The notes beneath the pieces are model-generated. The model saw only the letters and a list, made by a program, of their open reading frames with translations, was not told where the DNA came from and searched no databases. Source: an uncultured Bacteroidota bacterium (GTDB taxonomy: Bacteria > Bacteroidota > Bacteroidia > Bacteroidales > F082). Taken from it: a stretch of DNA of 64,000 nucleotides. Numbering within the stretch: the stretch's first letter is position 1; each line of letters starts with the position of its first letter. Positions 17,800 through 27,600 of the stretch are shown piece after piece. Position numbers and translations under genes: made by a program. The stretch lies in NCBI GenBank assembly GCA_903891085.1, contig CAITDJ010000124.1, forward strand, positions 62,001 to 126,000, in the 5' to 3' direction.

Positions 17800-17842
17800 T
17801 AACCGTATGTTTTGCCTTTTACGATAGCATAACATACGGTTA
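17800..17842. terminator. Hairpin between convergent genes
   Basis: TAACCGTATGTT (17800-17811) pairs perfectly with AACATACGGTTA (17831-17842) across 19 nt. It sits just after the low-complexity gene and before the end of the facing T9SS gene. There is no long T-run, so it is a weak or bidirectional terminator candidate. Confidence 0.5.
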
Positions 17843-17940
17843 CAAATCAAAGTCGGAAAAACCCGGAACACCTTACTTCCCGTTTCCATCAAGTAATGCA
17901 CTATTATCATTACAAAGGATACAGTACGTGTTGTTGGAAG

Positions 17941-18792
17941 TTATTTAACAACCATTCTTCTTGTAATGGTTTGATTGTGAATGAACAACTTAATTAAATA
18001 AACCCCTGAAGTTAAATTTGACACTTCAATCTGATCTTCCAAAGTAGTAAATTCATTCTTTTCAAACAATACCTGGCCCAATGTATTACATATAAGTAGT
18101 CTGCTGGGTAGATAGTTAATAGAATTTACATAGAAAACTCCGTTATTCGGATTTGGAAAAATCATCACTTCCGATAAAGCCGGATCCTCATCCAAACCTG
18201 TCATGACATCGCCAGTCACCATCACATCATCGATTTTGGTTTTCCCACTTGCCAATACATCACTTCCAGCCACGGATTGGTTGGAAGCCATCACCCAACG
18301 TACATAAACCAGGGGCTGGTTATTGCAGATTTCCGGAAGTTGTTTTGCGGTCAAAGCACCGGTTGTCCAGTCATTGGCTACTTCATACAATCCGTTAGGG
18401 ATATCGGTCCAGTCGCCGGCTTCGCCGATTTTCACCTGCACCTTAAAATCCTTCGGTCCCGGATCGGTGTTGCCCGATTGCTGCACCGAACTCAATTTGA
18501 TGTTTTCGTAACCTGTCGTATTCAAAAAGATTCTCCAGGCTTTACTATCCATGCCATTATCCCAGCCATCTGCCTGAGCAGCTTTGGTGGTGAGGCCATT
18601 TTTCATACTGATGGCACCTGTGCCACCCATGGTGCCTAATGTTGCATCTCCATTCAGATCGCTGTATGTTTCGACAAGCGTATCGGTTAAATTGTCGTTT
18701 GGGAATGTCCATTTTACAAGTAACACATTCTCCTGTGCATAGCTAATGAGGCTGAAAAATAATACAATGATTAACGTAAATGTTCTTTTCAT
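17941..18792 (-). CDS. T9SS-exported protein with beta-sandwich domain
   Basis: 283 residues. A signal peptide (1-19, ending ISYAQ) is followed by a domain of about 175 residues of the kind found in secreted Bacteroidota proteins (LLVKWTFPNDN, GWDNGMDSKAWRIFLNTTGY, LVYVRWVMASNQ). Its pattern resembles lectin/discoidin-like beta sandwiches, but no exact family is assigned. Residues about 205-283 are a type A T9SS sorting domain (MIFPNPNNGVFYV, LTSGVYLIKLF, ending TRRMVVK), which directs the protein through the T9SS to the surface or medium. Hairpin-rich repeats lie directly upstream of the ATG at 18792. Confidence 0.8.
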   Translation of the reverse strand: MKRTFTLIIVLFFSLISYAQENVLLVKWTFPNDNLTDTLVETYSDLNGDATLGTMGGTGAISMKNGLTTKAAQADGWDNGMDSKAWRIFLNTTGYENIKLSSVQQSGNTDPGPKDFKVQVKIGEAGDWTDIPNGLYEVANDWTTGALTAKQLPEICNNQPLVYVRWVMASNQSVAGSDVLASGKTKIDDVMVTGDVMTGLDEDPALSEVMIFPNPNNGVFYVNSINYLPSRLLICNTLGQVLFEKNEFTTLEDQIEVSNLTSGVYLIKLFIHNQTITRRMVVK

Positions 18793-18838
18793 AAGTTTGA
18801 TTTTGTTAGGGTTAATGTTTATTTGTCATGAAATTGAA

Positions 18839-19108
18839 CCCCTTCGGGGCTCATTTGATTTGTTCTTTATTGTACCTCCGGTTGCACCGGAGGTTATTGT
18901 GATTGATGTCCGTTGGACTTCTTTCGTATAAATATTATTTTCTTCTAAGCCCCGAAAAGGACCAATCTCAATAACCGCGGGCGCAGCCCATGGATATACA
19001 AAACTCTTTTCCTCTAAGCCCTGAAAGGGCTTAATCTCAATAACCGTGGGCGCAGCCCATGGATATACAAAACTCTTTTCCTCTAAGCCCTGAAAGGGCT
19101 TAATCTCA
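18839..19108. repeat. Hairpin-rich intergenic repeat array with 69-bp units
   Basis: Three units with a 69-bp period (18943, 19012, and partial 19081) each contain two tiny dyads: GCCC-TGAA-GGGC type and TGGGC-GCA-GCCCA. To the left are two further dyads, CCCC-TTC-GGGG (18839-18849) and ACCTCCGGT-TGC-ACCGGAGGT (18874-18894). Because 69 is divisible by three, the minus strand stays open as a pseudo-ORF whose translation (GLEEKSFVYPWAAP) repeats with the DNA. It lies between the end of the TonB receptor gene and the start of a T9SS gene. Similar dyad-rich strings are common between genes in Bacteroidota. Confidence 0.85.
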
Positions 19109-19165
19109 GAGTATGCAAATATAAACCGATTGTAATAATATGTAATATCAGAATAATACATCCAA

Positions 19166-21235
19166 CTAAAGTTTATACATAAATACTGCTGTCATAAACC
19201 GACCGGGTGATAACTCACCCTTTCGGTCAACATATTGATTGTCAAGTAAATTCTGCGCTTCTAGCGCAATGTAATAATGGGTTGAAAATGATTTGGAAAT
19301 CATTGCGTTCAACAAAAAATATGCATCAACCTGAATGGTATTTTCCGGATCGAACCATTGTTTGTCGACATAGTTTCCGTTTAGCTGAAACTCAAAAAAA
19401 CTATTTTTCCAAAGCATACCGGCATAAAAAAGATGGGGTGAAACCTCGGCCATTTCCTTACCATTAAGATTGGCGTTGATATCTACCATCGATGATTTAT
19501 ACTTTTTAATTACCGAGTGATTGAATGAATAACTCAACTGAAACGAGAGTTGTTTTGTTAAAAAATAATTCGAACTGAATTCAAGCCCAACTATTTCCAC
19601 CTTACCAATATTATCAGCAATCAGGACCGGTTTTAGCGCGTTTCCTCCTGTATCTACCGAATCGCCTGTGCTTACTGAATATTGAAAATCATGACCAAAT
19701 GAATAATAACCAGCCGTACTCATACTCAATTTATCAGATTGAACATGTGTAAAACCAATTTCATAGTTCGTAAGATATTCCGGTTTCAGGTTTGGATTCG
19801 CCAGCCTGAATCCTTTATTAATTTTCCCCGACTGACTCAGGTCTTTGAGTTTGGGAGGCTTAAAACCAACACCAGCAGAAACGTATATCGCATTTTCAGG
19901 AGTTAATTTGTATTGCAACGACACCTTCGGACTGAAAGCAACCCAATTGTTCTTATCAAAATCCTCATGAAAACCTTCAGAGAATCCGGTCGCTTTTGTT
20001 GGATTGATAATGGTTTGTTCTCCATGATGAAATCCAGCCACATCCAGACGGAATCCCACAATGGCTTTCATCCTGTTTTTTAAAAATGAAGCCTCATCCT
20101 GCACAAAAACACCTACGATATCCATTTTCCCCGAAGAAGTAATTTCATCGGGCGAAGTGCGATACGTTTCGTGGTTATGCGACAATCCTGATTTAATCTC
20201 AAGACCGGTTGTCAGGATTTGAGTCTTGAAAACAGGCATTGACATTGTCGAAATCAATCCCTTGTCGGTGCGGTTACTATATGAATCGAGAAGTCGGTAT
20301 TCGGCAAAATCATTCATTGATTCTTTTTGACTGTAATAATCCTCTTTCATCCAAAAAATGGAGGTGACAATATCTGCTTTCCCAACATTTGTGTAATAGG
20401 TGGTTCGGAGGTTGTTGGTAAAAACTTTGTCGAAACTACCTTCTTTGGTGAAAACTTTTGTCCCACCACCACGTTTTTCGTTGTAATTATCAATCACCAT
20501 TTCGAGCCGGTTTTTGCTATTGAGGCGATAACCCACTTTCACACTTCCTCCTGTTTCGTCAAGAGATGTCAGCACATCGGTTTCATCAATCAACGCGGGT
20601 GCCGCAAACACATAACCATCGCCGTGGCGATAAATACCATTGAAACTCCAGTAGCAACCTTTGTTATTTTTGATTTCATTGCCCGACAAGGCAATCGAAC
20701 CACCGATGGTGTTGTATGTTCCATAAAATGCTTTCACATTTCCTTCAAACTTCTTTTCAGGCATTTTGGTAATCAGGTTGATAACGCCTCCCATGGCATT
20801 GTTTCCGTAAAGTGCAGAAACCGGGCCTTTTACAACTTCTATTTTTTGGAGTTTATCTACAAAAATATTGTGCCAGTTGACTGACCCGCCTACCAGACTG
20901 TTCTTGGGAATGCCATCGACTAAAACAAGTACCCGGTCACTACCTTCGAGGCCACGCATGGTGACAGCCGCATTTTTTGAGAAAATTCCCCAACTCCGGT
21001 TCACCTGAACATTGGCCGTGGATTTTAAAATATCATCAATATTGCTCAATGGAAAAGCTGAAATTTCCCTGGCGCTTATAAGATCAGCTTGCGCAGGAAC
21101 CTCCAGTAATTGTCTTTCGGTGCGCGTGGCCGTTATGACTACTTCTTCAAGATTGACAACGTTGGTATCGGCTATTTGCGCCAATAGACCGCAGGTACTA
21201 AAAAACAGAAAAATAAATAAAATCCCGTTTTTCAT
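19166..21235 (-). CDS. TonB-dependent outer membrane receptor (BtuB/FepA-like)
   Basis: About 689 residues from the ATG at 21235. A signal peptide (about 1-20) is followed by a TonB-box-like EEVVITATRTERQ, a plug domain (about 40-150) with AVTMRGLEGSDRVLVLVDG and VVKGPVSALYGNNAMGGVIN, and a beta barrel that ends in an aromatic-rich strand (GRFMTAVFMYKL). The short N-terminus without a carboxypeptidase-like domain places it with vitamin/siderophore-type receptors, not SusC. The start codon overlaps the stop of the lipoprotein gene as TGATG. It is the last gene of a tight operon with a lipoprotein, a small membrane protein and a TiaS-like protein, implying uptake of a substrate handled by those partners. 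Confidence 0.93.
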   Translation of the reverse strand: MKNGILFIFLFFSTCGLLAQIADTNVVNLEEVVITATRTERQLLEVPAQADLISAREISAFPLSNIDDILKSTANVQVNRSWGIFSKNAAVTMRGLEGSDRVLVLVDGIPKNSLVGGSVNWHNIFVDKLQKIEVVKGPVSALYGNNAMGGVINLITKMPEKKFEGNVKAFYGTYNTIGGSIALSGNEIKNNKGCYWSFNGIYRHGDGYVFAAPALIDETDVLTSLDETGGSVKVGYRLNSKNRLEMVIDNYNEKRGGGTKVFTKEGSFDKVFTNNLRTTYYTNVGKADIVTSIFWMKEDYYSQKESMNDFAEYRLLDSYSNRTDKGLISTMSMPVFKTQILTTGLEIKSGLSHNHETYRTSPDEITSSGKMDIVGVFVQDEASFLKNRMKAIVGFRLDVAGFHHGEQTIINPTKATGFSEGFHEDFDKNNWVAFSPKVSLQYKLTPENAIYVSAGVGFKPPKLKDLSQSGKINKGFRLANPNLKPEYLTNYEIGFTHVQSDKLSMSTAGYYSFGHDFQYSVSTGDSVDTGGNALKPVLIADNIGKVEIVGLEFSSNYFLTKQLSFQLSYSFNHSVIKKYKSSMVDINANLNGKEMAEVSPHLFYAGMLWKNSFFEFQLNGNYVDKQWFDPENTIQVDAYFLLNAMISKSFSTHYYIALEAQNLLDNQYVDRKGELSPGRFMTAVFMYKL

Positions 21236-22182
21236 CAATCTTCCATTTTAATATCAAACGTTACATGGCCATCGTTCGTCCCCTCCACTTCTTTCACCAT
21301 CAAAAGCCCTTTACGATCGGCGTCAGTTACAAAAGAATAAATAATGCCCGGGGCAAGGTTCTTCGCTTTTCTGTTTCCGGAAGAAAAAACAAAAGTGTTC
21401 GTAACGATCAAACTGTCATTCATACATTTATAGAAATCGGCTACAGTCAGGTCTGATTCCAGCTTAAAACGAACCGTATTCCGGCTTGTCCAGTTCGCAA
21501 GGCCATATTCACCACCAAAAACCGATTCGTCAATATTGGCGCCCGGAGAAGCAATTGTATTTGCGTCTGTTTCTATCAGATCGTAAAAATACAAGAGGTT
21601 TATTTTCTGCTGAAGTTCATAAGCACTGGCCAATGCATAATTCTGACCGGTTTCAAAGGAATAAAATCCTCCGTTCGATGCATTGTTTTGCGCCCCCAAC
21701 ACGATGGAATTCAGTTGTTTTATTCCCCCGAAAATAGAAGCAGCATCTTTTTCGAGATGAACGCTCAATGTTTCCGATTTTCGACCCTGACGGTCCCGGA
21801 CATAAAACTGCCATTCTTCGTTCAGTGCAATACCTTTGGAAAGTGACAAGGTGTAATCGAAAGCATTTCCATAAATACCTGTATCAAAGGAAGTTAAAAA
21901 TGAATCCCTGATCCCGGTAATATTCAAATGGGTGAGTGCCACATCACTTTTTGTAAATGCTTTGATTCTGATTTTGATGTTGGCGCCCAGAAGCAAAGTA
22001 GTATCGCCTGACAGATAACCATTTGTTGTATCGAATTCGATAGAAGGTGGCGGAAAATACTGTTCCGATTTATTGCAGCCACCAAAAGCCATCAGCAAAA
22101 TAAATAACAACAAGGCAATTTGCGATATGTGTTTTTTCGCATATCGTTTGACGCAACAAAAACCATGTTGAATAACTGACAT
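21235..22182 (-). CDS. Surface lipoprotein of unknown family in the TonB receptor operon
   Basis: 315 residues. A 20-residue basic start precedes a hydrophobic stretch and a lipobox (LLMAFGGC). The N-terminal half (about 45-150) looks like an Ig-type fold (IEFDTTNGYLSGDTTLLLGA, SFLTSFDTGIYG). The C-terminal half has YSFETGQNYALASAYELQQK, followed by LLYFYDLI. I do not recognise a named family. The length and position before the TonB receptor suggest a SusD/HmuY-like surface substrate-binding role, which is inference. It starts 2 bases after the membrane protein gene and its stop overlaps the receptor start, so the genes are translationally coupled. Confidence 0.72.
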   Translation of the reverse strand: MSVIQHGFCCVKRYAKKHISQIALLLFILLMAFGGCNKSEQYFPPPSIEFDTTNGYLSGDTTLLLGANIKIRIKAFTKSDVALTHLNITGIRDSFLTSFDTGIYGNAFDYTLSLSKGIALNEEWQFYVRDRQGRKSETLSVHLEKDAASIFGGIKQLNSIVLGAQNNASNGGFYSFETGQNYALASAYELQQKINLLYFYDLIETDANTIASPGANIDESVFGGEYGLANWTSRNTVRFKLESDLTVADFYKCMNDSLIVTNTFVFSSGNRKAKNLAPGIIYSFVTDADRKGLLMVKEVEGTNDGHVTFDIKMED

Positions 22183-22184
22183 GA

Positions 22185-22736
22185 TTAGGCAGTGATTTTA
22201 CGTGTATAGGAAACGATACCATATGCCAGGACCCCGCCCAGTGCTCCAAAGAAAAAATGTGTGAAAAATGGAAGCACAAATCCTTGTTTCAGAAAGGTTT
22301 CGTAGGGATATCCCGAAACAACATAAATCACAAAGCGGCTCAGCGGAATCATCATATAAGCAAATCCACCAAGGAAACCAAGCAAGATAAAATTGTCCTG
22401 AACCCATTTTAATTTATTGTAAACAAGATCAATAACGAATCCCATCGCCAAATAAATGAAAGGTAAAAAAGGATCTTTGAAACCAAGAAAAGGCAGAAAT
22501 ATAAAAGTTGCAGCCGTGAGCGTTGAAATACTGGAACCAAACGGTATTTTGGTTATTTTCCGTCCAATAAGCAGAATTGCCATTACTTCGAGCCCGTGAT
22601 GACCCGGAATATTCAACGGAATCCGAAGGTAGGCCCTCAACAGGATGGCTACAGCTCCGGTAAACGTAAGTATCAAAACATCAATCAATACGCGGTTAAC
22701 CGGTAATGCTTTTGATGTAATCTTTGGTTGCGACAT
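22185..22736 (-). CDS. Small integral membrane protein, possible transporter S-component
   Basis: About 183 residues from the ATG at 22736; ATGs at 22745 and 22757 are also possible and all overlap the end of the upstream gene. Five or six hydrophobic helices are visible (LIDVLILTFTGAVAILL, LTAATFIFLPFLGF, FIYLAMGFVIDLVY, FILLGFLGGFAYMMI, FFGALGGVLAYGIV). A conserved-looking loop IPGHHGLEVMAILLIGR follows the first helix. Size, helix number and loop are reminiscent of S-components of energy-coupling-factor transporters, but I cannot name the family and no ECF ATPase genes are nearby. Its operon position between a kinase-like protein and a TonB receptor suggests inner-membrane passage of the receptor's substrate. 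Confidence 0.72.
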   Translation of the reverse strand: MSQPKITSKALPVNRVLIDVLILTFTGAVAILLRAYLRIPLNIPGHHGLEVMAILLIGRKITKIPFGSSISTLTAATFIFLPFLGFKDPFLPFIYLAMGFVIDLVYNKLKWVQDNFILLGFLGGFAYMMIPLSRFVIYVVSGYPYETFLKQGFVLPFFTHFFFGALGGVLAYGIVSYTRKITA

Positions 22737-23442
22737 GCCATTCATGGTTTTTATCATTTTGAATCTGTTCGGCAATGATAATAAGCTTGTGGTCTTTTAC
22801 GATGGGTTTCATCCACTCGCCAACCGTAATTTGCTGATCATCCTGCAATCTGTTGTAGTTTTTATCGGTAATGCCATCGACGACAACTAATTTCAGGAGT
22901 TCAGCAACAGTAAATGTACCTGAAATTTCGCGCAGGTCTTTTCCTTTCACCCACAAACAACGCCCGTCGTCGCCGGCTTTACGTAATCCAATAGCAGCCA
23001 GCGAGCCAATCACACCATCTTCGGTTCCGGTGAAACCTTCGAGGTAAACGCCATTATTTCTGGCAAGCAAACGGGCTTCAGATTGGGTAAGGATTTCCGC
23101 CTTTGCGCGTTTGCCCCAATCGCAAATAGTATCGCTTACTCCATCGAAATATCTCACCGCCAATCCGGCATCGGAACCCGGCGCACTCTCTTCCGGAAGA
23201 AAGGACCTGCAAATGGCGATTACCTTTTCCAATTCACTGGTATGCAAATCAATGCAGGCAGAACTATTGTGCGAAGTATAAGGGATTCGCCGATCGAACA
23301 GCAATTGGTGACGACTCACGCTGTTTACCGTTGCCAGGCCTTTGGCTTCAAGCAAAGCGCCTAATTGCCTTGCCCGGAAGCCGGTTCCGCGACTTTCTGC
23401 GTTGTCAGTATCATCAATTCCTATCAGGAGACGTTTTTCCAT
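22696..23442 (-). CDS. Standalone TiaS-like IDDTD (TCKD-type) domain protein
   Basis: 248 residues from the ATG at 23442. The N-terminal motif IGIDDTDN (Asp10, Asp11, Asp13) is the signature of the ATP-dependent kinase domain (TCKD) of archaeal TiaS. Two more features agree with that domain: RRIPYTSHNSSACIDL in the position of IPYKTRGN in TiaS, and TEDGVIGSLAAIGLR in the position of GVIGALAAIG. The OB-fold and zinc-ribbon parts of TiaS are missing. Bacteria modify tRNA-Ile2 with TilS, not TiaS, so another substrate is likely. It opens a four-gene operon with a membrane protein, a lipoprotein and a TonB receptor, which points to phosphorylation of an imported small molecule (inference). A -7 box lies about 20 bases upstream. 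Confidence 0.78.
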   Translation of the reverse strand: MEKRLLIGIDDTDNAESRGTGFRARQLGALLEAKGLATVNSVSRHQLLFDRRIPYTSHNSSACIDLHTSELEKVIAICRSFLPEESAPGSDAGLAVRYFDGVSDTICDWGKRAKAEILTQSEARLLARNNGVYLEGFTGTEDGVIGSLAAIGLRKAGDDGRCLWVKGKDLREISGTFTVAELLKLVVVDGITDKNYNRLQDDQQITVGEWMKPIVKDHKLIIIAEQIQNDKNHEWHVATKDYIKSITG

Positions 23443-23459
23443 TTTCACATTTCGTAATG

Positions 23460-23467
23460 CAAAAATA
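23460..23467 (-). promoter_or_regulatory. TAnnTTTG -7 box of the TiaS-like/TonB receptor operon
   Basis: TATTTTTG on the minus strand lies 17 bases upstream of the ATG at 23442, which predicts a leader of about 13 nt. Confidence 0.5.
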
Positions 23468-23681
23468 ATCAACTCGATCCAATAAGGACAAGGATGAACG
23501 CATAAAATGCGTAATTCCGTCAAGTTTAGAATGGTTCTTGGTTGATTGAAAAAAAAACGTGATTGAATAGAAAGTATATTTTGACAATTACATGAAAGCA
23601 ATCACTTTTTGGGCCATGACTCGATTTTTGATTAGTCAATAATCAATTGTAAATGAACAATATAAAATTACCTTGAGGCAT

Positions 23682-23807
23682 TTTGTTAAAAAAGCCGGAA
23701 AGTTATTATCTGATGGTCTGTGTATTTATTATGGTTTCATATACCTCGAACAACTACAAACAGTACAATTCAACAATCCTTGTTACACCTCCGGCTTTTA
23801 TAACAAA
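23682..23807. mobile_element. MITE-like element or hairpin-ended small RNA locus
   Basis: TTTGTTAAAAAAGCCGGA (23682-23699) and its near-perfect reverse complement TCCGGCTTTTATAACAAA (23790-23807) enclose 90 bases with no ORF. One mismatch is seen in 18. On the minus strand the distal arm ends in CCGGCTTTTTT, which also fits a terminator closing a short transcript of about 110 nt. No clear target-site duplication is visible, so transposon origin is unproven. Confidence 0.45.
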
Positions 23808-23860
23808 TGAACAATTCCATTCGAAATTTGTCTATTAATCAAAGAAATTCTTGATTATCT

Positions 23861-24571
23861 ATGAAAAAAACACTTCATACAGCCGACAGTCGCGGCCGGG
23901 CCGAACATGGTTGGCTGAGTTCGCGTTTCAGTTTCAGTTTTGCCGAATATTACAACCCTGAACGAATTCATTTTGGCATGCTGCGCGTATTGAATGATGA
24001 TATTATTCAACCGGACATGGGATTTGGTATGCATCCGCACGACAATATGGAAATTGTTACGATTCCGTTGCTGGGTGCACTTGAACACCGCGACAGCATG
24101 GGCAACGGCAGTATCATCAAGGCAGGCGAGGTGCAACTGATGAGTGCCGGAACAGGCATTCGCCATTCTGAGTTTAATCCTTCGCACAAAGAAGATGCCG
24201 GCTTGCTTCAGATATGGGTCTTCCCTAAATTGAAAAATATAACACCCCGATACGAACAAGGGGTTTTTGACCCAAGTCAATTACTGAACCAATGGCAACT
24301 TATCGTTTCACCCGATGGAAAAGATAACAGTTTGGTAATCAATCAGGATGCCTGGTTCAGCCTGACGAAAATAGTACACGGAGAAAGCATAACTTACTCT
24401 CCAAAACAACAGAATAACGGCATGTATCTGTTTGTGATTGAAGGAGGTATTATCGTCGGTGATACAACGCTCGGAAAGCGCGATGCGGTCGGCATTTCAG
24501 AAACAGAAAACATTGTCATTGAAGCTGTTGAGGATGCCTTTTTACTCCTGATGGATATTCCCATGCGTTAA
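23861..24571 (+). CDS. Pirin family protein (YhaK-like bicupin)
   Basis: 236 residues. The N-terminal cupin keeps all pirin metal ligands: His58 and His60 (MHPHDNMEIVTI), His102 and Glu104 (GIRHSEFN). Other family hallmarks are the start HTADSRGRAEHGWL, the motif MSAGTGIRHSE, and LLQIWVFP. The C-terminal cupin is degenerate, as usual for the family. Pirins bind iron; some have quercetin-2,3-dioxygenase activity and some act as redox-linked regulators, so the role here is open. Likely cytoplasmic and monocistronic. Confidence 0.92.
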   Translation: MKKTLHTADSRGRAEHGWLSSRFSFSFAEYYNPERIHFGMLRVLNDDIIQPDMGFGMHPHDNMEIVTIPLLGALEHRDSMGNGSIIKAGEVQLMSAGTGIRHSEFNPSHKEDAGLLQIWVFPKLKNITPRYEQGVFDPSQLLNQWQLIVSPDGKDNSLVINQDAWFSLTKIVHGESITYSPKQQNNGMYLFVIEGGIIVGDTTLGKRDAVGISETENIVIEAVEDAFLLLMDIPMR

Positions 24572-24634
24572 AACTAACTGTGCACTTAAACACAGAAATA
24601 AAAAGTTCAAGGATTCAGGAGGCAATTAAAGTCG

Positions 24635-27600
24635 TTATTCCCTGATAACTTTAACATAAAACCTTACACCAGATTCATTCACGATATCCAGCACATATAT
24701 TCCTGCAGAACAGGTCGAAAAATCGTGAGTAAACTGACCACCATTCAATTCACTCAACCCTTTGCTAACCAATAAACCATTCGCATTGAATAGTTTGTAT
24801 GAAACGATTTTGCTATTGGGCAAATAAATAGCAAGCTGGTTTTTCACCGGCATCGGAAAAGCCTCTATTTTTCGCAGTGAAGCTGATGGTTTTTCGACAG
24901 ATGTAATATCCGTACAGCCTTTCAGGTAAAATTCCGCAGCCGAAGCCCAGGGGTTTCCGTTGACTTCGGAAATCGCAACCAACCTGAAATACCTGCCTAT
25001 CACCGGTTCATCAAAGGTGATTGTTTGTGGGGCAGCCGTATTTCCAAATTGTCCGGTGGACACAACCTCTCCCCAATTCAGGGTGTTTTCGCTTATATAC
25101 AATTCATAATCCTTGATTCTTCCATTTTCTCCATCCTGACGATTCAGTAATGTAAAATCGAACAGCTTGTATGGTTGTCCCATATCAATCTGTATTTCAT
25201 GGGGATACTGATCATCACCCGTGCTCCAGCGCGTGTGCCAGATGGTGGAAGGATCATCATCGAAGGCCATGATTGCCGTGCCGGGATAATTTACCTCTTC
25301 ACTATCAACATATTCCAGTTCCCAGCTGCTTTTCGGGGTTTCGGCCGGATTTTCACAATCTTCAATCGACGGACAAGTGGTGGTTGTAACCATATCTGTC
25401 AAGGTTTTTTCATAAGTTATCCCGTTTTGTATAAGCTGAAAATCAACCGTATAAGACCCCGGATTTCCCAAAACAACCTTTGGATTCCGGCTATTTGCAT
25501 CGTTGATATATGTTGGTTCCGGACTGATGTTCCACTGCCAGCTGGCTCCTTCATGATTGACAATGGAATGGTCATCGAAAAACAAAGTATCTGTCATACA
25601 ATTATATATCGGCTTCTCAACCCATGGATCGACCAAAGGCTCAAAAACTGTTTCCAATAATGATGATTCCCAAACACCTGCATTTCCGGCCACCCTCAGT
25701 TTTCCATCGCGGAAAAATGGTAAAGCCATATTCACAGTCATTCCCACCGGATAATTTGTGTTGTAGGTTTCCCAATCATTCATATTCTGTGTCCTGTAAA
25801 AAACACTGGCTGCCTGACCATTTCTTGAATTTGAAAACAGATACAATATATCCTGACCATCACTACCAGGTTGAATCACAAGGCATTTGGTGTATTCAAG
25901 CAAGGAACCGGTAAAATCGGTCCAGGTATTACCACCATCTTCCGAGCGGAATATTTTCCCAATATCTGCAGTCCATGTACCATTTTGCAGACAGGCGTAA
26001 ATCACATTTTCATTGTAGGGTGAAATGGCAAAAAACAACTTTCCTTTCCAGTAAGCGGAACCATATTCTCCATTGGTTAACGCTGGTTTCAATGTCCATG
26101 TAATTCCGCCATCTCCGCTTCTGTACAGCCCCATTCCATTCACATCCACATAGATAACCAAAGGATTTTTCCGGCTGATCTGCAGGTATCTTACTGTATT
26201 GGTAAAATTATGCAACAGGGTAAAGGATATACCCATATCTATGCTTTTCCACACGCCCTTTTCTTCGCCAAGATAAATGGTTCCGTAATATTTCGGATGA
26301 AAAACCATATTGCTGCGCCGACCACCGTATTCTTCCATATTTGGATATTTAGAGAAGATAAACCTTCCTTCGGGCAGGCCTTCAGCGGAAGCTGGTAAAA
26401 TCCAACCATTTCCCAGATCATTAAAAGCGACATGACGACTTTTTCCCTGCAATACCCATCCTGTGGGCGATTCAGCGCCACCCATACGTAATGCTTTTGG
26501 CTGATAAAAATCAGCCATGGAAGTATTTCCGTTGTGATATCGTCCACCAACCACAATGTCCTCGTTCCAGCCCTGATCGAAACCCCACATATCAGAGCCA
26601 ACGAGGCCGTTGTTGTAAGATGCATAATTCGATGTGCTGGTGAAATTGTCTGTTGTAAGTGTCATTCCGCCATCGGTTGAAACCCAGGTTTCACCATTCT
26701 CAAGGAGTTTCATGTCCTGAATATCAGGATGTATGGCAAAATTACCACTGTAACCACCGATGGCATGAAAATCCTGTCCCCCATTTGATGATTTGAAAAG
26801 TGTTGTGGTCCCCGCGAAGAGGATGTCTTTGTCGACCGGTGAAATTTCCAGTATCAAATCGAAATACCCTTGACCGTTGTCCATCGGGAAGTTGCCTGTC
26901 TGACCGGTTGCCAGCAGAGACCAGGTGGTATTTGTTTCGGTGTTGATTCCTTTGTAGAGTAAAGGAGTGCCATTCGAACTTAGCATGACGGCCAGCAACA
27001 ATGACGGATCATCGGGCGTTGTGGCCAATAAACCGCCTGAAACATCACTGATATTTGCAGGGAAAGTACTTTGTGTGTTAAAAGTGATTCCTCCATTGTA
27101 AGAGGCTGCGACGGAAAATTTTCCGGCTACGGCAGAAAGCGCAAAAATCGTATTGCTGTTACCCGGCTGAATTTCTATATCGTATGTGGCATGCATCCAT
27201 GGGTTTGACCAGTTTTCACCGGCATCGGTACTGATAAAAACACCCGTTGGGGTGGCAGCGATGATTTCGTCGGGATCGGCAGGATCGAGGCGTAAGCGAT
27301 CGGCCGAAAACGTGTTTCCAGCGGCAAGCATGGCAATCCAGGTTTGTCCGCCATCGCTTGTTTTGTGAAGCTGATTTCCGGCAGCCACATAAACAATATC
27401 GGGATTTTGCGGGTGAATAACCGTCGCAGTAACACTTCCTCCAAACACATGATCAATACCAACTGGCGACCAGTTCAGGCCTTTGTCGGTTGTCTTATTC
27501 ACAAATCCAGTTTCCGTACCTGCAAACAGGATATTTTCGTTGGTCGAAGCCACATCAAATGAGTAAACATTCGCCTGCCATGGACATGCTGAAGGTGGTG

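Follow-up and report, generated by a model that had tools for sequence, protein, structure and literature searches.

The locus analysed here raises the question of what a predicted kinase, a small membrane protein, a lipoprotein and a TonB-dependent receptor do together. It lies at positions 19166 to 23442 of a 64,000-nucleotide stretch from an uncultured Bacteroidota bacterium (assembly GCA_903891085.1, contig CAITDJ010000124.1, positions 62,001 to 126,000), referred to below as the window. An earlier sequence-only reading had proposed that the genes import and phosphorylate a small, perhaps nucleoside-like molecule. Homologies, model folds, conserved linkage, tungsten/molybdenum (W/Mo) gene context, co-occurrence with AOR-family genes (for tungsten aldehyde oxidoreductases) and a common operator were found here. 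On balance, the operon is probably a W/Mo uptake module serving AOR-type enzymes, with the kinase processing or trapping the import and with control through an AOR-type operator. The assignment to a W/Mo regulon and to uptake is made with good confidence, the trapping step by the kinase is doubtful, and tungsten is the most likely metal.

All four open reading frames were located on the minus strand, and their start and stop codons were checked. The kinase-like protein (22696..23442, ATG to TAA, 248 aa) carries the motif IDDTD at residues 9–13. It is followed by the membrane protein with the motif IPGHHGL (22185..22745), for which ATG 22745 was used as the start in the alignment and ATG 22736 or TTG 22775 are also possible; the overlap with the kinase gene is 50 bases from ATG 22745 and 41 bases, as first described, from ATG 22736. 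The lipoprotein gene (21235..22182) follows after a 2-base gap, and the receptor gene (19166..21235) starts at ATG 21235 inside TGATG, both in agreement with the earlier description.

Thirteen Bacteroidota loci were compared (the window, L011–L016 and L024–L029). The kinase gene adjoined the membrane protein gene in all 13, the lipoprotein gene was present in 12 (not in L028; truncated in L016, where the contig stops) and the receptor gene lay immediately downstream in nine. A receptor relative is found about 2 kb upstream of the kinase in L014 and L015, and the contigs of L016 and L027 stop before the receptor place. Since the same neighbours were recovered in relatives at kinase identities down to 37%, the linkage is beyond chance, and the four genes are kept together in related genomes as the unit that they had been taken for. 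The operon extends past the span first read and has five genes; the fifth (17941..18792, minus strand) encodes a secreted protein with a Por secretion tail (Pfam PF18962, E 2.4e-12) and follows the receptor in seven relatives (L011, L012, L013, L024, L025, L026 and L029). A tandem repeat (18938–19108, 69-base unit, 2.5 copies) lies between receptor and fifth gene in the window.

One link to W/Mo metabolism is a palindromic operator. In an unguided count of spaced palindromes in 27 regions upstream of AOR, modE and kinase genes, ATATG-N10-CATAT occurred in 11 regions (eight AOR and three modE upstreams, and none of the eight kinase upstreams), and in 30 letter shuffles no dyad had a count above four. 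The fuller form of the operator is CGATATGC-N8-GCATATCG. A consensus scan of the window and 27 Bacteroidota loci gave 29 sites with at least 14 of 16 matches, all at AOR, modE or lipoprotein/TonB receptor starts (L040:5238 was assigned to modE, whose annotated frame starts upstream of the site). Ten sites had 13 matches, seven of them at such starts, at wtpA or at a kinase start and three elsewhere (two in the window). Seven control windows, 105 kb in all, held no sites with 13 or more matches, and a further 228 kb of the same genomes held five, located at AOR (one), wtpA (one), modE (two) and inside another gene (one). At the AOR gene of the own genome, a site agrees with the consensus in 15 of 16 positions (L032:7972-7995). 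In the operon, a site of this AOR/modE/wtpA type (CGATATG-N10-CATATCG; 22123..22146, 15 of 16 matches) lies 36 bases inside the lipoprotein gene.

A scoring matrix was built from 13 sites at AOR, modE and wtpA promoters of kinase-free genomes, these training sites having been chosen with a consensus that had emerged from a set of genomes some of which bear the kinase. The matrix ranked 22122–22147 first in the whole 64-kb window with 22.4 bits, compared with maxima of 17.2 bits in 25 simulated windows and 15.0 in seven control loci. Lipoprotein-start sites were found with it in the window, L011, L012, L013, L024–L027 and L029, and a site before the receptor in L028. In L029 the site precedes the lipoprotein start codon by 7 bases, and in L013 the operator arms are intact though the encoded residues differ; because of this shift in position relative to the window and the intact arms, the operator is not a by-product of the protein sequence. 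A weaker variant directly before the start codon of the kinase (23453..23476) scored 14.1 bits, which ranks fourth in the window and falls inside the simulated range, and was also present in L011, L012, L013, L014, L015 and L024. A plain palindrome test of the kinase promoters gave p 1.0 for the window and p < 0.05 in only L012 and L024 of 13; a half-site consensus tried alongside it used kinase-promoter letters and is partly circular. Riboswitch control was rejected after an Rfam scan of 17800–24900, which returned no riboswitch and no other match. Site comparison thus argues strongly that the operon has its operator in common with AOR, modE and wtpA and belongs to a ModE-type W/Mo regulon; a regulator, putatively ModE, that would bind the site and respond to W or Mo is suggested by the sites at modE genes next to AOR.

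The gene neighbourhood points the same way. The kinase gene directly follows AOR and ModE genes in G018 (L027), G022 (L028), G034 (L029) and G407 (L016), the AOR and ModE identities having been verified in L029. In G034 the order is AOR, ModE, kinase, S-component-like membrane protein, lipoprotein, receptor, fifth gene, MoeA, MoaA, MoaC, and in G022 the operon lies between AOR and MoeA and has neither lipoprotein nor fifth gene. The kinase-free genome G027 reads AOR, WtpA, permease, ATPase, ModE, MoeA, MoaA, MoaC (WtpA verified, the others by eye), so that WtpABC there and the operon in G034 and G022 both sit between AOR and MoeA, on opposite sides of ModE. AORs characterised from such gene clusters use a tungsten cofactor, according to the part of PMC1779556 available. 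Other kinase loci hold a molybdenum-storage protein (E 2.6e-63 to 2ogx), TupA, WtpA, ModA, molybdopterin oxidoreductases and HTH + PBP regulators; HTH + PBP is the domain make-up of TaoR, regulator of tungsten aldehyde oxidoreductase (PMC11980592, available part). Several relatives of other phyla have a receptor together with ECF A/T genes near the kinase. Many neighbour-gene names were assigned by eye from the first 70–130 residues and others by Pfam, NCBIfam or structure matches.

For a count, the Mo/W markers were AOR, ModE, Tup/Wtp/Mod transporters and molybdenum-storage genes. A Mo/W gene was found near 25 of 45 kinase loci and in 4 of 40 control windows (p 9e-6); the controls were drawn from kinase-bearing genomes, some were short, and one (L141), chosen on a contig known to hold AOR, was kept although it counts against a W/Mo link. 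Uptake partners were present at 23 of 45 kinase loci and in none of the 40 controls, and either class at 40 of 45 versus 4 of 40; because the references for both classes came mostly from kinase/AOR loci already inspected, the uptake count is circular, the combined count partly so, and the Mo/W count is biased towards the favoured reading. MoeA and HTH + PBP regulators have a domain in common and are not independent markers. The near copies L011 and L012 were excluded from the 45 loci; of the 32 kinase-positive genomes in the phylum of G409, 28 are represented by L082–L109 and G409 by L018, and G502, G728 and G801 were excluded.

An AOR-family gene (PF02730) was present in 51 of 51 kinase-bearing genomes versus 52 of 76 kinase-free ones. 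Within the family the figures were 20 of 20 versus 11 of 27 (p 0.0017), the AOR of G001 being a contig-edge piece below the cut-off of which 517 residues were recovered at 78% identity. In the phylum of G409 they were 31 of 31 versus 41 of 49 (p 0.02), which is weak evidence alone because most kinase-free genomes there also have AOR.

The nucleoside-like cargo first proposed is not supported by these data, since context, co-occurrence and operator point to W/Mo metabolism, and it now appears most improbable. It has in its favour that the TiaS domain modifies a cytidine and that a gene of the PF06865 nucleoside phosphorylase type occurs in the AOR cluster of L029; among loci inspected by eye, no nucleoside-metabolism gene recurs beside the kinase, whereas W/Mo genes do. 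The PF06865-type protein has 93 residues (L029:8280-8561, between AOR and ModE), and such a gene was also seen by eye in L027, L041, L042 and L043.

Profiles and a structure model identify the 248-residue protein itself as a predicted kinase that has the TCKD fold, related to the kinase domain of TiaS and standing alone, as had been suspected. The best match in a single-sequence NCBIfam scan was methanogenesis marker 11 (TIGR03280, E 3e-11, residues 3–156), at 43 bits against a cut-off of 255.8 and with profile positions 133–285 of 292 matched only, and the cut-off was thus not reached across the whole protein. TiaS (NF040849) came next with E 8e-4 and 18 bits, its cut-off being 600. A profile built from 19 relatives matched TiaS structures (E 2e-10) and 3u02, a 252-aa P. 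furiosus protein (E 5e-10), and homology search did not place the protein in an unrelated family. The structure model, made from 36 sequences (pLDDT 92), superposed on TiaS 4rvz with Z 22.4 and a root-mean-square deviation of 1.7 over 152 residues; the first unrelated match had Z 8.0. The match covers residues 1 to about 151–153, i.e. the kinase domain only, and the other TiaS domains are without counterpart. T20, the threonine of GTG, aligns with the TiaS residue that we take to be the autophosphorylation site Thr18. Compared with TiaS, the archaeal tRNA(Ile2) agmatidine synthetase (3amt, 4rvz), the protein has the kinase-domain fold and IDDTD in common, and differs in length (248 versus about 420 aa), in its own motif RHQL, in its W/Mo gene context and in falling short of the family cut-off as a full-length protein.

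The kinase family is rare. It was found in one of 345 evenly drawn Bacteroidota genomes (the own genome), in 10 of 61 near relatives and in 32 of 395 genomes from the phylum to which G409, labelled Deltaproteobacteria, belongs, and 13 named records with the kinase belong to Bacteroidota, Deltaproteobacteria, Archangiaceae, Gammaproteobacteria and Thalassoglobus. A tree of 36 members gave a Bacteroidota clade (support 100/100), a clade of L017, L018, L019 and L082 (98/89), one with ECF or BtuC-type transporters (100/100) and a fourth (100/100) in which the kinase is mostly found near the molybdenum-storage protein and, in three members, near genes for TonB and ECF proteins. In G598, G745 and G696, open frames of about 470 aa at the kinase suggested fusion proteins; these were rejected, as in L083 and L092, the two inspected, the ordinary kinase start sits inside a long GC-rich read-through. 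A conserved small protein, some 70–90 residues long, was seen next to the kinase or separating it from the molybdenum-storage gene (L097:8264-8476, L102:7773-8048, L105:3602-3865, L021:7384-7590), and that of L097 had no Pfam or NCBIfam match.

The membrane protein had no family match by sequence in Pfam, NCBIfam or profile searches. Its structure model (pLDDT 87.9) had S-components of energy-coupling factor (ECF) transporters as top matches, with Z values of 14.0, 11.8 and 11.6, the first to 5edl, and with ThiT, PanT, BioY and RibU next in order. As methane mono-oxygenase subunits reached Z 11.4 and Foldseek alone was weak (E 0.036), the fold match is good and not overwhelming. EcfT (PF02361) was not found in 13 kinase-bearing Bacteroidota genomes, the own genome included (G000 is 93.6% complete), so the S-component there would work alone or with some other partner. 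S-components without EcfT are known, for example BtuM. An EcfT gene was present at nine kinase loci of relatives (L018, L083, L084, L085, L090, L092, L094, L095 and L097), which strengthens the S-component assignment; eight of the nine also have a TonB receptor, and eight have a membrane protein matching the profile of this family, with that of L018, itself part of the profile, adjoining the kinase. The protein thus has the fold of ECF S-components, and EcfT near the kinase in the nine relatives, in common with ECF transporters, and differs from them in the lack of a T-component in the 13 genomes and of a sequence-family match. The role of inner-membrane carrier proposed earlier is plausible on the basis of the modelled fold.

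The receptor has the Pfam Plug (E 9.7e-23) and barrel (E 1e-39) domains of TonB-dependent receptors. The lipoprotein, without a match in Pfam, NCBIfam or PDB, is proposed to be its partner in ligand binding, at the cell surface or in the periplasm. A conventional importer of heme, cobalamin or an iron chelate, lying near W/Mo genes by chance, would explain why the best NCBIfam models of the receptor, all below cut-off, are those for heme and B12, and also the BtuC/FecCD-type permeases of some relatives. The binding protein of that transporter matches HI_1472 chains (E 1.1e-21, best 4ovk), which we take to be the molybdate/tungstate-binding MolA; together with the empty Rfam scan and an operator that is that of AOR, modE and wtpA, this makes such an importer very unlikely.

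Import of a molybdopterin- or tungstopterin-like pterin through receptor and S-component, with re-phosphorylation by the kinase, was weighed against the cofactor genes. The vitamins carried by S-components of known structure and a kinase suited to salvage speak for it, as does the failure to find MoaE, the large molybdopterin synthase subunit, in any of the 21 AOR-bearing members of family f1 (genomes G000–G036; AOR loci L027–L029, L032, L034–L036 and L039–L046). MoaE was, however, equally missing in the 11 kinase-free genomes among these. Nineteen of the 21 have MoaC, as do 18 of 20 kinase-bearing genomes; the two kinase-bearing exceptions are G407 and, with a contig that breaks off next to MoaA, G022. 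The own genome has MoaA, MoaC and MoeA together (L150), so scavenging of the whole cofactor is unlikely. Oxyanion transporters and the storage protein also recur near the kinase, and pterin salvage is accordingly given a small probability. ThiS/MoaD-like and ThiF/MoeB-like genes were seen beside AOR in many family genomes without MoaE.

About as improbable as pterin salvage is a role of the kinase in W/Mo homeostasis as a regulatory or chaperone ATPase (a protein kinase or storage-protein helper), with the transporters as its companions. It would account for the occurrence of the kinase with very different transporters and with the storage protein; the kinase gene nevertheless adjoins that of the S-component in all 13 Bacteroidota loci, as expected for an import partner.

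Several observations weigh against a W/Mo uptake module. The lipoprotein-start sites of L014 and L015 are weak, and a ModE gene was not located in the own genome, in the stretches read there. Five of the 45 kinase loci (L020, L023, L082, L087 and L108) had neither Mo/W marker nor uptake partner, and the receptor scores best with the heme and B12 models described above. The kinase also occurs beside Tup/Wtp/Mod transporters and the storage protein with no receptor in reach, and is thus not tied to a receptor-borne cargo; this suggests a target common to W/Mo routes, whether oxyanion, chelator or regulatory target. A WtpA/ModA-type protein (PF13531) is present in 10 of 13 kinase-bearing Bacteroidota genomes, the own genome included.

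PF13531 was found in 11 of 11 kinase-free AOR-bearing family members and in none of five AOR-free members tested. The kinase-bearing Bacteroidota without WtpA/ModA are G018, G034 and G407, three of the four with the operon adjoining AOR. This pattern fits the operon as a substitute for an oxyanion importer and is not significant; WtpA loss as proof of replacement was rejected (3 of 13 kinase-bearing versus 0 of 11 kinase-free AOR genomes, p 0.22). None of the Bacteroidota genomes tested yielded TupA. In contrast to the full set of L044, WtpA-like genes that lack visible permease and ATPase neighbours were seen by eye at L033:6405-7364, L036:9255-10220, L039:4704-5666 and L040:3829-4818.

In the favoured scheme of W/Mo uptake, the TonB receptor and its lipoprotein partner would bring a W/Mo species, as oxyanion or chelate, across the outer membrane, and the S-component-like protein would carry it across the inner membrane. 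Inside the cell the TiaS-type kinase may spend ATP on converting this species or its chelator, which would then be trapped, or released for storage and cofactor assembly. The operon would be controlled via the same ModE-type operator as the AOR gene. We infer the cargo, the direction of transport, the identity of the regulator, the sign of its action and the kinase substrate; receptor, carrier and ATP-dependent trapping are suggested by how the operon is built and regulated and by the activity class to which the fold belongs.

The operon has regulon and gene neighbourhood in common with the TupABC, WtpABC, ModABC and MolBCA importers, and the Wtp genes between AOR and MoeA in G027 occupy its place in G034. 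Unlike these ABC importers, it has an outer-membrane receptor and a kinase, and no substrate-binding protein, permease or ABC ATPase was found among its four proteins with Pfam and NCBIfam. The thiamine set of Bacteroidetes, consisting of an outer receptor, PnuT and a kinase, follows the same logic of receptor, carrier and cargo-trapping kinase, with other carrier and kinase families and without the W/Mo-type operator. Prokaryotic tungstate/molybdate uptake is described as ABC-based (TupABC, WtpABC, ModABC) in the available part of PMC11980592, and 'TonB' and 'ECF' are absent from the available text of PMC11980592 and PMC9246946. The operon is not described in the available parts of PMC13119186, PMC12584684, PMC11980592, PMC11938285, PMC12096430, PMC9246946, PMC1779556 and PMC13197769. 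Its parts are of known kinds; searches of full text in open-access PubMed Central turned up neither the combination nor the S-component subfamily nor a W/Mo role of a TiaS-type kinase, in line with the earlier statement that no system of this composition was known, and they turned up no functional study of methanogenesis marker 11.

Tentatively, a new form of tungsten acquisition may be represented here, composed of a receptor, a motorless S-component and a TiaS-type kinase, with the same kinase family acting in W/Mo import and storage in other phyla and marker 11 as a further W/Mo-handling kinase in methanogens. If true, the receptor-based route would add an outer-membrane step and a new phosphoryl-transfer reaction to tungsten biology, would give the bacterial branch of the TiaS kinase fold a testable role and would provide a lead on methanogenesis marker 11.

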